A stretch of DNA of 38,800 bases from a virus: positions 1-38,800 of the IMG/VR virus record IMGVR_UViG_3300032093_000353; one strand, written 5' to 3'. The notes beneath the pieces are model-generated. The model searched no databases, was not told the DNA's origin, and was given only the letters and a program-made list of their open reading frames with translations. This document shows, one piece after another, positions 21,501-34,499 of this stretch. The first letter of the stretch is position 1. The number at the start of each line of letters is the position of its first letter. The position numbers and the translations under genes were made by a program.

Positions 21501-21934
21501 GACTTCAGCTTGTCGATCTTACGAGGCCGGCCCCGCTTCTTGGGCGCCTCATCTTCGGCAATTGCATCTACCGGCGCCGCAGTTCCGGTCGCCACGGGGT
21601 CAACGCTAGGGTTGTAGTTAGCTAATTCGCTTAACGCCTCGCGGACCGCGTCTTCCAGCCGTTCCTTAATGACGCTGACATCGCTGGTGCCGGCCACAAT
21701 GGGCGCCATCTTGGTCGGGACCGCTAGCATCTTGGCCCGGCAGGCGTGCAGGACACTTTCCCACGCCTTCACCACATCAGCGGTAAAGCACATGGTCGCC
21801 TTGATCCGCTGAAGCTCTAGCTCCGCGATCTCGGCTTCCGCATTAATCTTGCGGGTGCGGGCTTCGTCGTAGGACATGCCCACATTAGTGAGCATCATAC
21901 TTTCTTCACCTGCCCGCTTGCGCGACTCTGTCAT
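21497..21934 (-). CDS. Terminase small subunit (Nu1-like)
   Basis: The 145-residue protein precedes the GpA-type large subunit and overlaps it by 4 bases. The middle is helical (EARTRKINAEAEIAELELQR), as in Nu1-type small subunits. The C-terminus carries an AT-hook-like KKRGRPRKIDK, suggesting minor-groove DNA binding. It would recognise the packaging site and load the large subunit. A typical N-terminal winged HTH is not obvious, so recognition may differ from lambda Nu1. Confidence 0.75.
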   Translation of the reverse strand: MTESRKRAGEESMMLTNVGMSYDEARTRKINAEAEIAELELQRIKATMCFTADVVKAWESVLHACRAKMLAVPTKMAPIVAGTSDVSVIKERLEDAVREALSELANYNPSVDPVATGTAAPVDAIAEDEAPKKRGRPRKIDKLKS

Positions 21935-22842
21935 TAGAAGGTTAGACCCATTTTGCCGTAATGCTCGCGCATTCTAGCAGCCGCCTCTGGTTTAAGCAAC
22001 TGAAGCCAACGACTGGGGTGGTGCGCGGCCTTTGCAGAGTTACAACTCCAGCACATCACTGTGACATTGCTGGCGGAATGAGTGCCGCCAAGTTTTAGCG
22101 GAACAATGTGGTCAAGCACCTTATCGTCGCGCTCCATATAGCCATCGCAGCATGGGCATATTTTTACCGAAAATCTTTCTCGCATCAGTTCAGATGTAAT
22201 TGTCCCATCTGAACGCTCATCAATAGTCGCTTGTCGGCGCGTATTGCCATTCCACTCGCCAGAATGAACCTTGGCCGATCGGCATGGCCTACAGGTTGTC
22301 TGCCTTCCATCTTTTGCAGCCTTGTTTGGTGAGAAGTCATTGAATGACTTTCTGATGCCGCAAGCAGAGCACGTTTTCATGCGCTCAGAAATATCAATAT
22401 CTACTTCGGCATCAGTTCGCTTGGGCGGCGAGCAACAATATTTGCGGGTTTTGCCTGCATAATTTCCACGAGCAGTGCCGCGTTCTATGGGCCACTTAGA
22501 CCTTGGACTTTCCTGCCCGCATCTAGAGCATTTCATAAGAACAGACAAAAGCTTGTCCTTTCTGCCTTGGGCGTTAGCCATCTTTTTTTGTAGATTGTCG
22601 AATGACATTTTGAGCCTTTGATTGCGGGCCGAAACCCTACCAATTTCAGTGCTGCAATTTTTGCAATAGCTTGGGAATCTCGTCGGATAATTTGCATTAA
22701 CCCGATACTCGTCAATCGGCTTATGCGTTTTGCACCTGACGCATAGCCATAACTCCCCCATCAGGCGCTTAGCCTTTGTCATTTCAAACACGCGTTCCGC
22801 GTATTCTCTCTGCTTTTGAGATGGCGCTCGCTTTTTTCCCAT
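21934..22842 (-). CDS. HNH endonuclease with multiple zinc-binding CxxC pairs
   Basis: The 302-residue protein ends in an HNH nuclease domain (about 225-280): CPCC, then LDHIVPLKLGGTHSASNV and MCWSCNSAKAAHH. Upstream are several CxxC units (VRCKTH, YCKNC, KCSRCG, TCSACG, CRPCRS) that look like serial zinc fingers. HNH enzymes next to cos-type terminases assist packaging cleavage in phages such as HK97; a homing role is the alternative. The stop overlaps the small terminase start (TAATG). There is no good ribosome site at the start; a promoter ends only a few bases before the ATG, so the message may be leaderless. Confidence 0.85.
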   Translation of the reverse strand: MGKKRAPSQKQREYAERVFEMTKAKRLMGELWLCVRCKTHKPIDEYRVNANYPTRFPSYCKNCSTEIGRVSARNQRLKMSFDNLQKKMANAQGRKDKLLSVLMKCSRCGQESPRSKWPIERGTARGNYAGKTRKYCCSPPKRTDAEVDIDISERMKTCSACGIRKSFNDFSPNKAAKDGRQTTCRPCRSAKVHSGEWNGNTRRQATIDERSDGTITSELMRERFSVKICPCCDGYMERDDKVLDHIVPLKLGGTHSASNVTVMCWSCNSAKAAHHPSRWLQLLKPEAAARMREHYGKMGLTF

Positions 22843-23188: not shown

Positions 23189-23214
23189 GAAAAGCCCGGC
23201 GCAATGGCCGGGCT
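23189..23214 (-). terminator. Intrinsic terminator of the small-protein island
   Basis: On the minus strand a 7-bp stem (AGCCCGG with CCGGGCT) and 8-base loop are followed by TTTT, starting 5 bases after the XRE gene stop. It would end the leftward island transcript before the late operon. Confidence 0.75.
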
Positions 23215-23218
23215 CAGG

Positions 23219-23374
23219 CTAAATGGCGAGTCGGGCTAGCATTGCGACTCGTTTGTTGATTGGCGCGCGCCCCGTTTCAAGCTTGCGGTAATGCGACTCT
23301 GTCATTGCCAGCAAGCTTGCGGCTTGCGCTTGCGTTATGCCCCGCGCTTTGCGCCATGATGCTAGGTCAATCAT
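23219..23374 (-). CDS. XRE/Cro-type repressor-like DNA-binding protein (51 aa)
   Basis: The 51-residue protein is almost entirely an XRE helix-turn-helix: MIDLASWRKARGITQAQAAS, then LLAMTESHYRKLETGRAPI. It lacks any dimerisation or sensor domain, so it is Cro-sized. AAGGGG lies 5 bases before the ATG, which overlaps the upstream stop (ATGA). It is the last gene of the island operon and is followed by a terminator. It probably regulates this operon or the nearby late promoter. Confidence 0.8.
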   Translation of the reverse strand: MIDLASWRKARGITQAQAASLLAMTESHYRKLETGRAPINKRVAMLARLAI

Positions 23375-23652
23375 AGCTGCCCCTTTGCTTTAGCGATTGC
23401 GGCGCGTGCTGCATCCATAGTTGGCCCCGTCATGCCCACACCATTAAAGATTTCATCGAGTGCGGCCAGCAGATCGGGCGCGGCGGCGATCAGGCGGGCA
23501 TTCGCATCGGCATTGATATATTGAGCCGCCTGCACGGCAGGATTCACCGCTTCCGCAACGCAATAGCCATTTGCGTCCCGAATGAGCTTTAAGCCGCGCC
23601 CCGTTGTTTCGCAGATATGCCACGGGGCAGGCGTATGATTGACGTTTTCCAT
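23371..23652 (-). CDS. Phage 'TPAPW...ARLIAAAPDLL' protein (93 aa)
   Basis: The 93-residue protein carries HTPAPWHI near its start and NADANARLIAAAPDLLAAL in the middle, the signature of a very common phage family (Ead/Ea22-related) with no established function. It overlaps the XRE gene by ATGA. Such genes usually lie in early accessory regions. Confidence 0.75.
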   Translation of the reverse strand: MENVNHTPAPWHICETTGRGLKLIRDANGYCVAEAVNPAVQAAQYINADANARLIAAAPDLLAALDEIFNGVGMTGPTMDAARAAIAKAKGQL

Positions 23653-23679
23653 GTTCCTATTTCCTTTCGATCAATTGAC

Positions 23680-24579
23680 CTAAGCCGCTTGCCGCATAAA
23701 TGCCGCTTCCCGCAAAAGCTGCCAATGTTCGGACAAATCCGCGCCGGATTGTTCCAGCCAACGGACCACAAAACCGCTAGTATCCTTTTGCGCTTTCCGC
23801 CCCTTTGGCGACAATCCGACAATGAATCCGCCTTTAGCGTCAAGGTGCCGCAAATCGTGCTGGTCCCCGTCAATGACAGGAAAGCCGGCAAAGCTTTCCG
23901 GCAATCCGCCGGCAAATACCATTGCAACGTTTTCCCCTGCCAGTAGGGCATTGACGCAAGCGGCGCTATTTTCCGCGCTATATGATAGCGTCAAATCCAA
24001 ATTTGCAGGCTTGCTGGCAAGCCGCTTTGGATTCTTAGTATATTCGACAAACTGAATATCGGGAAACAATTGCAGGATTGTCCGCACGCGCCCCGCATAA
24101 TACGAGTCGTCAATGGCAATCCCCATAAGAGCCCCGTTGTAAGCGGCCAAAGCTTTCGACGTTTTCGCGTCAATCGCAAAGCTTATCCGTTCCCATACAA
24201 TATCGGTTGAGCCATTAAGCCGCACGCAAAGCTTTAGGTTTTCGCGGCGCGCTTCCCTATCGAGCTTGACGATATCACGGACTAGGCGATTCATATATTC
24301 GGCGCGATTGCGCATAAACAATTGCGCCTTAAGCTTGCGGCTTTCGCGAGTCGGGTTTGTGCCATTTTCCAAGTCGGAAACAATCGCGGCTTGGCCGCTA
24401 TACTGGCCTAGGCAAAGCGCAATGCAGGCAACGCTAGCGTGCGAGCAAAGATTGCCGACTCCGCCTAGTTTGTAAGGGGCCATATAGTGAATTGCATTCA
24501 GATAACCAAAGCCGCTTGCTTTTGCGGCTTTCGCGCTATCGGTCGAAAACAGGCGCGGAAAATAATTTTCTTTTGTCAT
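23680..24579 (-). CDS. GP88-like phage protein with conserved cysteine cluster
   Basis: The ~299-residue protein resembles the phage 'gene product 88' (GP88) family. A cysteine cluster near the N-terminus (NLCSHASVACIALCLGQYSG) is followed by a helical part (ESRKLKAQLFMRNRAEYMNR) and an alpha/beta barrel-like remainder (LCVRLNGSTDIVWE, then QFVEYTKNPKRL). The cysteines could bind metal or an iron-sulphur cluster. The biochemical role is not known. The start MTKENYF at 24579 is preferred over an ATG at 24594 because GGGA lies upstream of it. It is the largest gene of the AAGCTT-rich island. Confidence 0.7.
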   Translation of the reverse strand: MTKENYFPRLFSTDSAKAAKASGFGYLNAIHYMAPYKLGGVGNLCSHASVACIALCLGQYSGQAAIVSDLENGTNPTRESRKLKAQLFMRNRAEYMNRLVRDIVKLDREARRENLKLCVRLNGSTDIVWERISFAIDAKTSKALAAYNGALMGIAIDDSYYAGRVRTILQLFPDIQFVEYTKNPKRLASKPANLDLTLSYSAENSAACVNALLAGENVAMVFAGGLPESFAGFPVIDGDQHDLRHLDAKGGFIVGLSPKGRKAQKDTSGFVVRWLEQSGADLSEHWQLLREAAFMRQAA

Positions 24580-24618
24580 TGTTCTAAATCCCATTTCTAA
24601 AGCTTGAACGATTAATGA

Positions 24619-24798
24619 TTAGCCAATCCATTCACGGGACCATCCATATTCTCGAAAATCCCGGAACAGACTCCACCAATTGCGCTTAATCCAATGATAG
24701 CGCCATTTTGCCTGCCCCTTTGTTAAGCCGGGCCAAACTTGATCGGGCTTGTCGTTTCCATATCGGACATAGGCGCAATACGTTTCCTTATACGGCAT
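24619..24798 (-). CDS. Small Trp/Arg-rich protein (59 aa)
   Basis: A strong AAGGAG lies 7 bases before the ATG. The 59-residue protein is basic and unusually rich in tryptophan, tyrosine and arginine (QAKWRYHWIKRNWWSLFRDF, then EYGWSREWIG). It has no membrane segment and no family I recognise. Composition suggests binding to nucleic acid or to a host protein, but that is a guess. Confidence 0.7.
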   Translation of the reverse strand: MPYKETYCAYVRYGNDKPDQVWPGLTKGQAKWRYHWIKRNWWSLFRDFREYGWSREWIG

Positions 24799-24809
24799 TG
24801 CCGGACTCC

Positions 24810-24932
24810 TTATAGACTAGCAGCGATGCAGGCTTGGCTATTGCCGCAAGCTTGCCTGATATCGGATTCAATGCATGCCCACGCCCCAAAGAAACAAATC
24901 GCGGCAATAATGGCTAACTTGATTCTAATCAT
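24810..24932 (-). CDS. Small exported or membrane-anchored peptide (40 aa)
   Basis: AAGGGG lies 7 bases before the ATG. The 40-residue product starts MIRIKLAIIAAICFFGAWAC, a signal or anchor sequence, and carries a short cysteine-containing tail (CIESDIRQACGNSQAC). The tail's cysteines could form disulphides in the periplasm. It ends 11 bases before the next gene. Function unknown. Confidence 0.6.
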   Translation of the reverse strand: MIRIKLAIIAAICFFGAWACIESDIRQACGNSQACIAASL

Positions 24933-24943
24933 TAGGTTTCCCC

Positions 24944-25093
24944 TTATCGATAGCGGCGGATTGCATAGCGATTCCACCCGGCAATCGCATTTTCGCTTGC
25001 GGCAAGCTTATCGGCAATTGCAGACGTTTCGGCGCTTTGAATATAACGGCCAGTCATCAGATCGAGAATATACCACGGGCGCGGCGAAGTCAT
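24944..25093 (-). CDS. Small hypothetical protein (49 aa)
   Basis: AAGGGG lies 7 bases before the ATG, the same arrangement as in the two following genes. The 49-residue soluble product starts MTSPRPWYILDLMTGRYIQS and ends with a basic WNRYAIRRYR. No family recognised. Confidence 0.65.
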   Translation of the reverse strand: MTSPRPWYILDLMTGRYIQSAETSAIADKLAASENAIAGWNRYAIRRYR

Positions 25094-25104
25094 ATCGAAT
25101 CCCC

Positions 25105-25293
25105 TTAGTTATAAATGCCGAAACCGGCATTGCGAGCGCGGGTTTCATCACCCCATGCCTGCAAGCTCAAATCGCAAGCCGCATAATTCGCGGCATTGCC
25201 ACAAATGCGGCGCGTTTCCATACGGCCATGAATTCCGATTGCCAGCAATGCAGCAATACCGGCGGCAATGATTGCTTTGTCCATGCGAGTCAT
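25105..25293 (-). CDS. Small single-span membrane protein (62 aa)
   Basis: First gene after the island promoter. The 62-residue product has one hydrophobic segment (about residues 7-21, AIIAAGIAALLAIGI) and a polar tail with two cysteines. The ribosome site is modest (AGGGA or TAGG). A large plus-strand frame overlaps it, but the small minus-strand series with repeated good ribosome sites is the better reading. Confidence 0.55.
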   Translation of the reverse strand: MTRMDKAIIAAGIAALLAIGIHGRMETRRICGNAANYAACDLSLQAWGDETRARNAGFGIYN

Positions 25294-25519: not shown

Positions 25520-25548
25520 ATTACATGAAATATAACGGTTTTTGTCAA
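25520..25548 (-). promoter_or_regulatory. Strong leftward sigma-70-type promoter for the small-protein island
   Basis: On the minus strand TTGACA (25543-25548), a 17-base spacer and TGTAAT (25520-25525): 6/6 and 5/6 to consensus with ideal spacing, the best promoter in the window. It drives the genes from 25293 down to 23219. Three 11-bp-spaced repeats lie about 40 bp upstream and could bind a regulator. Confidence 0.8.
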
Positions 25549-31899: not shown

Positions 31900-32918
31900 C
31901 TAAGATACCAGAGCCAATGCACCAGTTGGTCGGCCTTATTGATGCCCACCACGAGTCGCAACAGTCGCATCCGCGCGGCCACTTGGGATGCTCATTGCTT
32001 GGGCACCCCTGCGACCGTTGGCTCTGGCTATCGTTCCGCTGGGCGGTTCAGGAGCAGTTTCCCGGTAGGGTGCTGCGTCTGTTCCGTCGCGGACACAATG
32101 AAGAACGCACCATCATTTCCGATCTGCGCGCCATTGGCGTTGACATCCGTGACACGTTCAATGGGCGCCAGCGCAAGGTTGACTTCGGTGCGCACGTTAG
32201 TGGTTCTATCGACGGCATTATCGAAAAGGGCCTGCCTGAAGCGCCTAAGAGCCGGCACATTGCTGAGTTTAAGACGCACTCGAAAAAGTCGTTTGATGAC
32301 CTCGTCAAGAATGGCGTCGAGAAGTCGAAGCCGCAGCACTATGTGCAGATGCAGGTTTACATGCACGGCACAAATATTCGCAAGGCCGTTTACATTGCCG
32401 TCTGCAAGGATGACGACCGGCTGTACTCTGAGCGCATCGAACTAAACAAGGAAGTCGCCGAGAAATACATTGCCCGTGGCCGCAGGATTGCGCTGGACGC
32501 CCGGATGCCGCCGCCAGTTTCGACGGACCCGACTTGGTATCAGTGCAAGTTCTGCCCGGCCTATTCGCTGTGTCACGAAAAGGCACCGACCAAATTTGCC
32601 AACTGCCGCACCTGCGCGCATTCGACACCAACTGAGGCATCGACTTGGCGGTGCGAGCGGCATGACGCTGACGGCATCCCAGAGGATTTTCAGCGCACCG
32701 GGTGCGACGACCATGTGATCCACCCCGATCTGGTGCCGTGGGAGTACGAGGGCTCAGAAGATGGGCTGCATGTAACTTGGCTGATTGACGGCAAGCGCAT
32801 TCTGAATGGCCCCAATGGCTACAAGAGCCGCGAGATTGTCGCTAACCCAGCCGCATGCGGCTCTGAGCAAGTTGAAGCCGTTAAGGCGATTTTTCCCGAT
32901 ACTGAGGTTGTAGGATGA
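31896..32918 (+). CDS. PD-(D/E)XK nuclease, Cas4/RecB-like with cysteine cluster
   Basis: The 340-residue protein has the PD-(D/E)XK core: D106 (GSIDGII), E124-x-K126 (HIAEFKTH) and the QxxxY-type motif (YVQMQVYM, 149-156). Cysteines C39, C217, C220 and C226 match the spacing of the Fe-S cluster of Cas4 and AddB nucleases. More cysteines (237, 240, 253, 270) suggest a second metal site in the C-terminal extension. It would resect DNA ends to feed the Sak4/SSB annealing system. GAGG precedes the ATG. Confidence 0.85.
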   Translation: MTKIPEPMHQLVGLIDAHHESQQSHPRGHLGCSLLGHPCDRWLWLSFRWAVQEQFPGRVLRLFRRGHNEERTIISDLRAIGVDIRDTFNGRQRKVDFGAHVSGSIDGIIEKGLPEAPKSRHIAEFKTHSKKSFDDLVKNGVEKSKPQHYVQMQVYMHGTNIRKAVYIAVCKDDDRLYSERIELNKEVAEKYIARGRRIALDARMPPPVSTDPTWYQCKFCPAYSLCHEKAPTKFANCRTCAHSTPTEASTWRCERHDADGIPEDFQRTGCDDHVIHPDLVPWEYEGSEDGLHVTWLIDGKRILNGPNGYKSREIVANPAACGSEQVEAVKAIFPDTEVVG

Positions 32919-33523
32919 GCAAGAAATATACTGTCAAAGAGATTTTTCCGACGATCCAAGGCGAAGGGTTCTGGTCTGGCCGAGCAGCTACGTTTGTTCG
33001 ATTTGCGGGATGCAATCTGTGGACCGGCTTGGAAGAGCATCGTGCCAAGGCAGTTTGCCAATTTTGCGACACCGACTTTCTTGGCGGTCGGCGGTACACG
33101 CTTGAGTCGCTTGTCGCGGCTATTCAATCGCATCGACCAAAGTTCGTCGTATTCACTGGCGGCGAGCCCGGACTTCAACTTGATACGCAACTTGTGCGCC
33201 AACTTCAGCGCCGTGGGTTTTATTGTGCCGTGGAGACGAATGGAACGCTACCGATTCCGCCATTATTGGATTGGGTGTGCGTCAGTCCGAAGTCTGGGAC
33301 TGACATTATCGTGTCCGCAGCCGACGAATTGAAGTTGGTGTACCCTCAAGATGGCCTTGCGCCGTGGCTGGCTCAAGCAAAAGTAAGTGCTAAGCATAAG
33401 TGGCTGTCACCGATGGACGGCCCCGCTCTGCGCGAAAACATCGCCAAAGCTGTCAAGTACGTTTCTGAAGACTGTCAGTGGCGCTTGAACGTACAAGCGC
33501 ACAAATTCTGGGAGATACGCTGA
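32915..33523 (+). CDS. queE: 7-carboxy-7-deazaguanine synthase QueE
   Basis: The 202-residue radical SAM protein has the QueE start IFPTIQGEGFWSGRAATFVR, cluster cysteines C33, C48 and C51 (CX14CX2C, as in some bacterial QueE) and the GGEP motif. QueE ring-contracts carboxytetrahydropterin (CPH4) to 7-carboxy-7-deazaguanine (CDG), the core of the 7-deazaguanine pathway. It overlaps the nuclease upstream by ATGA and shares a base with the QueD start. In phages this pathway feeds DNA-base modification. Confidence 0.92.
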   Translation: MSKKYTVKEIFPTIQGEGFWSGRAATFVRFAGCNLWTGLEEHRAKAVCQFCDTDFLGGRRYTLESLVAAIQSHRPKFVVFTGGEPGLQLDTQLVRQLQRRGFYCAVETNGTLPIPPLLDWVCVSPKSGTDIIVSAADELKLVYPQDGLAPWLAQAKVSAKHKWLSPMDGPALRENIAKAVKYVSEDCQWRLNVQAHKFWEIR

Positions 33524-33828
33524 TGGGGAAAATGACAGGAATCAGCGGCACGATCTCCGCTGCTCACTACAGCCGTGACGGCAAATTGCATGGCCACACT
33601 TGGCAGGTCGTGGTCTGGCATCATGCAAATGGAGACATAATCTTAGACGCTGAACATCGCAGACGGCTGTTGACTCAGTACCTTGCGCGGTTCGACCACA
33701 ACGTCCTGCCGGATGAACTTGCTTGGGGTGAAGACCTTGCCGAAAAGATCGGGCAAGACCTTCGCGCTGCGGCTGTTGATGTCAGCCGCCCACTAGAAGG
33801 CATTTACGCGAAGTGGATCAGAGATTGA
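33523..33828 (+). CDS. queD: QueD-like 6-carboxytetrahydropterin synthase, catalytic Cys replaced
   Basis: The 101-residue protein is a short T-fold enzyme of the QueD/PTPS family (E. coli QueD is about 121). Zinc ligands are present: H15 (SAAH), H23 and H25 (LHGHTW); the FDHN motif and a C-terminal LEG glutamate also fit. QueD makes CPH4, the substrate of QueE. The usual catalytic cysteine in 'CxxLHGH' is aspartate here (D19, in DGKLHGH). It may work with altered chemistry. It is coupled to queE and overlaps the transglycosylase gene downstream. Confidence 0.82.
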   Translation: MGKMTGISGTISAAHYSRDGKLHGHTWQVVVWHHANGDIILDAEHRRRLLTQYLARFDHNVLPDELAWGEDLAEKIGQDLRAAAVDVSRPLEGIYAKWIRD

Positions 33829-34499
33829 CGATCCATTATCACGGCACGCCGATCACGCCGAAAGAGGTGTTTATGGAGGTCGCGGGAAGGCACTACTGTG
33901 TGTCTCACGCGCAGCCTCAGGACATTGCGCGCGCCCATCAGTACGGTCAAAGTGTTATGCTTGATAATGGCGCCTTTTCAAAGTGGCGAACTGGCAAACA
34001 AACTGATTGGTCAGCTTATTATGAATGGACGGATCAATGGCTGGATCATCCAACAACTTGGGCCGTCATCCCAGATGAAATTGATGGAGATGAAAATACG
34101 CAGGATTGCTTGATGGCCCAGTGGCCGCATGGCCAGCGTGGCGCTCCGGTCTGGCATATGCATGAATCAATTAACCGGATGCTAAGACTGTTGGATAGCT
34201 GGCCAAAGGTCTGCATCGGCTCATCTTCGCAATATTCATCTGTGGGCTCACCAGAATGGAGAGCCAGAATTGAGACGACATTTGATGAGATAAATAAAAG
34301 ACATAAAAGAACTCCATATATTCATATGCTGAGAGGAATGCAGTGCGTGAAGTGGGAGTATCCTTTTGCAAGTGTAGACAGCACAGATGTTGCCCGCAAT
34401 CATTCTCAATCAAAGCGAAGCGCAAGAGAAATGGCAGATAGATGGGATCAAATGCAATGCCCATCAAAATGGATTAAAATGCAAATGGAGTTATTTTAA
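33825..34499 (+). CDS. dpdA: DpdA-like DNA 7-deazaguanine transglycosylase
   Basis: The ~224-residue protein has the pattern of TGT-like transglycosylases used by phages on DNA: IHYHGTPITPKEVF, FCVSHAQP-like strand, VMLDNGAFSKW (the base-binding aspartate region), VIPDEIDG, KVCIGSS and FASVDSTD (the likely nucleophile region). It would exchange guanine in DNA for a 7-deazaguanine base made by QueD and QueE. The TTG at 33825 overlaps the queD stop; a GTG at 33813 is the alternative. Gene context makes the assignment stronger than sequence alone. Confidence 0.72.
   Translation: MTIHYHGTPITPKEVFMEVAGRHYCVSHAQPQDIARAHQYGQSVMLDNGAFSKWRTGKQTDWSAYYEWTDQWLDHPTTWAVIPDEIDGDENTQDCLMAQWPHGQRGAPVWHMHESINRMLRLLDSWPKVCIGSSSQYSSVGSPEWRARIETTFDEINKRHKRTPYIHMLRGMQCVKWEYPFASVDSTDVARNHSQSKRSAREMADRWDQMQCPSKWIKMQMELF

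Follow-up and report, generated by a model that had tools for sequence, protein, structure and literature searches.

The DNA analysed here, referred to as the window, is an entire IMG/VR virus record of 38.8 kb; its source is a siphovirus-like environmental phage known from metagenomes. Seven minus-strand genes running from 25293 to 23219 form an operon, which is preceded by a promoter-like site and followed by an intrinsic terminator (Table 1). In the original prediction four consecutive genes of 40-62 residues, a GP88-like gene, a gene for a protein with the NARLIAAAPDLLAAL motif and a 51-residue XRE gene were placed ahead of a terminator, and every one of these frames was present as claimed. 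The identical 7-base ribosome spacing described for three genes was exact for B49, C40 and D59, because the three consecutive junctions before them read TAAGGGG or TAAGGAG, seven bases and ATG, with a stop-to-start gap of 11 nt. The F93 and X51 genes overlapped by ATGA.

Table 1. Genes and transcription signals of the operon.
Feature	Position	Strand	Description	Basis
Promoter	25520..25548	-	sigma70-like, TTGACA-N17-TGTAAT; 255 nt 5' of the first gene	11/12 consensus matches
A62	25105..25293	-	62 aa	ORF and layout
B49	24944..25093	-	49 aa, basic	ORF and strong Shine-Dalgarno
C40	24810..24932	-	40-aa predicted membrane peptide	ORF and homologues in L018 and L013
D59	24619..24798	-	59 aa, Trp/Arg-rich; unnamed small-protein family	ORF
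GP88	23680..24579 (or 24594)	-	299-aa GP88 protein (PF17338, phrog_1617)	Relatives support the 299-aa start
F93	23371..23652	-	phrog_1273 protein with the NARLIAAAPDLLAAL motif	PHROG E 1.9e-18
X51	23219..23374	-	XRE/Cro-like HTH protein of 51 aa; closes the operon	HTH profile matches
Terminator	23189..23213	-	Intrinsic; 7-bp GC stem and T-rich tail	Fold -18.9 kcal/mol

When the leader was shuffled by mononucleotides, 0.15% of the shuffles reached the score of the promoter-like site. The site is missed by a stock promoter scan because of the G at the second base of its -10 box. Conservation of the promoter was not established, since no sigma70 site with at least 10 consensus matches was detected upstream of the operon in the relatives L004, L013, L018 and L041. 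A search for an operator-like sequence common to the leaders gave short matches only. The terminator (z = -2.5) starts a few bases 3' of the XRE stop codon. Its loop, CCATTGyG, recurred after the XRE gene of L010, L013, L014, L018 and L041, and the stems covaried by compensatory changes.

The variable accessory locus in which the operon lies is flanked by tail/replication genes on one side and by the terminase on the other. The upstream genes on this strand encode a primase-helicase, a methylase-like protein, a minor tail protein (phrog_1924) and a 70-aa protein; downstream lie genes of an HNH protein, of the terminase and of structural proteins. The most informative relative was the near-identical phage G007 (38,250 bp), which is collinear with the window at 86-97% DNA identity over most of its length and is probably complete, because a 127-bp terminal repeat is present. 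Between 21874 and 25681 nothing aligned with G007 except the genes of D59 (93%) and of the XRE protein (80%). The corresponding locus of G007 contains a 63-aa gene, a membrane peptide gene, a 50-aa gene, D59, a 114-aa gene, a DUF7227 gene, a 53-aa gene and an XRE gene, so that GP88 of the window is replaced by DUF7227 (PF23872, phrog_2554; found for example in the Pakpunavirus PaP1). Different gene mixtures were observed at the same locus of L013 and L018. The locus was therefore regarded as an accessory cassette that can be swapped, in which certain elements recur: a gene of the three-cysteine enzyme-like kind, frequently D59 as well, and a small XRE gene that closes the unit. As in a moron, the promoter-like site (predicted) and the terminator are present in the window, and the unit is replaced in G007. 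The description of the operon as a self-contained unit was thus borne out by the promoter-like site, the tight operon, the conserved terminator and the exchange as a block.

Two other regions differed between these genomes. An HNH/endonuclease VII-like gene (21934-22842), which separates the cassette from the small terminase gene, lies outside the blocks aligned with G007, and L041 carries a gene resembling it at this position. The stretch 32915-34499, also unmatched in G007, carries a 7-deazaguanine module made up of a QueE-like gene (phrog_2076), a DpdA-like gene (phrog_887) and a frame recognized by reading as QueD-like. Among the 20 records searched, the DpdA-like gene occurred in the window alone and was absent from the 19 related records; a tie of GP88 and D59 to the deazaguanine genes was ruled out on this ground.

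The Trp/Arg-rich D59 had been described as matching no family. This held for Pfam, PHROGs, NCBIfam, PADLOC and PDB sequences, none of which gave a match, but clear relatives were found in other phage contigs. Viral contigs were scanned and all loci searched with a profile, which gave 18 distinct sequences in two branches with the core W-x-[GN/K]-L-x-x-x-[QK]-A-x-W-R. A codon comparison gave a dN/dS of about 0.18, which indicates purifying selection, and all 13 members measured were basic (pI 9.6-10.6). The AlphaFold model of D59 adopts a beta-beta-alpha-beta topology (pLDDT 84.7). No homologue was found in GenBank phages by tblastn with either branch, nothing below E 0.001 was returned by a fold search of BFVD, and searches of contigs from GTDB genomes with short peptide patterns confirmed neither D59 nor GP88.

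The GP88 protein of the window matched PF17338 with E 9.7e-28 and 98 bits (cut-off 24.4) over profile positions 7-228 of 230, and phrog_1617 with E 1.1e-48; its gene was also under purifying selection (dN/dS 0.15). Across 22 homologues the invariant residues were C45, C52, C56, G123, D126, Y180-T181-K182 and D237-G238-D239. The top three structural matches found by VIA-align for the GP88 model (pLDDT 85.4, pTM 0.86) were radical SAM enzymes, including viperin and EpeE, at a low Z of 5.0-5.3, short of a safe level, and Foldseek returned no significant match. The likeness would lie in three cysteines that come after strand 1 of a predicted partial barrel, and the model weakly suggests a radical-SAM-like barrel. 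The cysteines of GP88, however, are spaced as C-x6-C-x3-C, and the protein was not assigned to the radical SAM enzymes because the classical CxxxCxxC motif is absent.

DUF7227 and a divergent phrog_2554 type were homologous in a profile comparison (E 1.9e-9), whereas direct comparison of GP88 with DUF7227 by hhalign was not significant (probability <1%). A phrog_1392 protein in L012 matched both PF17338 (1e-28) and PF23872 (3e-8), and because of this double match a single superfamily is likely. A 313-aa ORF in L055 (2875-3816) encodes DUF7227 with a long N-terminal extension, and the phrog_2554 profile, with 529 positions, likewise points to an additional N-terminal domain in part of the family. 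The phage collection contained 117 records with GP88 and 186 with DUF7227, and no paper on the function of either family was found.

A62 has one predicted membrane helix (hydrophobic peak 2.67) followed by two cysteines. Both A62 and B49 were found in only two contigs, which are 100% identical, so that start signals and layout are the evidence that they code for proteins. The homologues of C40, at 52-54% identity, lie in the same operon of L018 and L013, and the tail cysteines C29 and C35 were the sole pair kept among them; for C40, which the original prediction called exported, a membrane helix with two conserved cysteines is plausible. A common plan, a membrane helix and then CGN...AC, was noted in A62 and C40. 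The Pfam profiles HTH_31 (E 1.3e-8) and HTH_3 (E 7.8e-7) matched X51, which has an 80% identical homologue in L004 and a dN/dS of 0.26. Small XRE genes occupied the same place in relatives and closed the unit in many of them. Evidence for coding thus came from purifying selection for D59, GP88 and X51 and from the homologues for C40.

The genes next to D59 were then compared between loci. D59 was found beside GP88 in the window, L010, L014, L019, L020 and L041; beside DUF7227 in L013, L047, L048 and L050, and one gene away from it in L004, L043 and L046; beside the divergent phrog_2554 type in L005 and L015; and beside the phrog_1392 protein in L012. A three-cysteine protein was directly adjacent in 8 of the 11 distinct D59-anchored loci (P = 4.9e-5 for a random gene of the loci), and over all loci D59 was adjacent in 13/16 cases vs 39/166 for other small families (Fisher P = 7e-6). 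Both P values assume independent loci, an assumption that related phages do not satisfy. Since four enzyme-like types are involved and D59 lies either upstream or downstream of them, the association probably arose more than once. It is neither obligate nor exclusive, as most DUF7227 and phrog_2554 loci are without D59, and L006 and L007-L009 carry D59 on records where none of the three enzyme-type PHROG families was found. A second small unnamed family (L004:3521-3865; ~106-114 aa, MGNRA...) had an enzyme-like gene directly beside it in all 7 distinct cases, and shared cargo pools could for this reason explain part of the D59 pattern. Taken as a whole, the neighbourhood suggests that D59 and the enzyme-like proteins work together early in infection.

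Indirect evidence on timing was obtained from cluster A mycobacteriophages, whose GP88 proteins score in the same family above the Pfam cut-off and are encoded among small uncharacterised genes of the early region. Gene 87 of phage Kampy encodes a homologue of GP88 (26% identity, E 2e-10), and RNA-seq of Kampy showed expression at 5 min to be largely confined to genes 82 to 88 (PMC4626039). In Achebe the GP88 gene is the third from the right genome end. Outside the mycobacteriophages, some ten distinct phage records have GP88 no more than 2 kb from a record end. The Kampy timing and these positions fit early expression of the GP88 family. The role in early host takeover put forward in the original prediction was thus indirectly supported, by a homologue in the block that dominates at 5 min and by the frequent location of GP88 near genome ends, and would extend to this phage by analogy. 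The Achebe and Kampy operons examined differ in that neither D59 nor a closing XRE gene is annotated in them, and GP88 stands near the right genome end there. The operon of the window adjoins late genes, which counts against the explanation preferred below.

It is quite possible that D59, GP88 or DUF7227 and the XRE gene are unlinked members of a cargo pool which recombine at a hotspot of related phages, the job of D59 being unrelated to its neighbours. The locus is hypervariable, other small families also cluster beside these enzymes, and L006-L009 have D59 without any of them; however, D59 exceeded the other small families taken as a group, and its adjacency covers four enzyme types in both orders. 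A superinfection-exclusion or anti-defence island, in which the membrane peptides would be active and the remainder would serve regulation, was considered improbable. Its moron-like layout and its two membrane peptides with paired cysteines would suit such a unit, but these peptides are among the least conserved genes, whereas the enzyme, D59 and the XRE gene recur. The defence or anti-defence role proposed earlier was also left unsupported by the PADLOC defence models, which gave generic HTH matches for X51, a weak one for F93 (E 0.006) and nothing else.

XRE domains occur in antitoxins, and the overlap of F93 with a small XRE gene in second position recalls a toxin-antitoxin pair that would guard the locus. 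We regarded this as very unlikely, since the gene preceding XRE differs between relatives (e.g. 53, 57, 61, 64 and 104 aa), leaving no fixed pair, and F93 belongs to a known phage family. The lowest probability of all was given to D59 as a DNA mimic that inhibits uracil-DNA glycosylase in the manner of phi29 p56. Structures of p56 were among the top structural matches of D59 (3zoq, Z 4.7; 8ail, 4.3; 4l5n, 4.3) and are alike in size and topology, but these Z values (4.7 over 50 residues) were tied with those of unrelated ACT and PII-like folds. Inhibitors of Ung are described as proteins which mimic DNA and obstruct the cleft where DNA is bound (PMC10303552); an acidic surface is therefore required, and the 13 D59 proteins measured are basic.

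The explanation that we prefer, with a confidence falling somewhat short of even, is a moron-like swappable cassette with an early-acting three-cysteine enzyme-like protein, D59 as its optional partner and an XRE regulator. It was proposed that host RNA polymerase would read the cassette from the cassette's own promoter and stop at its own terminator, and that X51 would most likely regulate the cassette, and thereby its own gene. The centre of the cassette would be the three-cysteine enzyme-like protein, GP88 here and DUF7227 in near-identical phages. In the GP88 model the three invariant cysteines come after strand 1 of a barrel-like fold, an arrangement reminiscent of radical SAM enzymes, and on this ground GP88 is likely an iron-sulfur enzyme. 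Judging by its neighbourhood, charge and fold, D59 would most likely act as an adaptor, binding the enzyme or delivering it to a nucleic acid or to a target in the host. The enzyme would probably act early in infection upon a host or phage molecule, and the membrane peptides may be separate cargo.

A possible parallel is phage Gp37/Gp68 (DUF5131) with its three-Cys-motif partner TcmP. What the two systems would share is the idea of a phage protein with three cysteines that is served by its own partner gene; as differences, D59 has about 60 residues and matched no NCBIfam model, and DUF5131 (PF07505) was found neither in the window nor in five related records. It may also be, though this is rather unlikely, that the D59 family comprises dedicated partners (adaptors or substrates) of several early-acting three-cysteine enzymes, with GP88 and DUF7227 as interchangeable catalytic modules of one host-takeover system. 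Both GP88 and DUF7227 are widespread in phages, and D59, which follows several of the enzyme-like types, is a candidate partner for them. The natural swap, in which the enzyme changes and D59 stays, permits a clean comparison within a pair of near-identical genomes.
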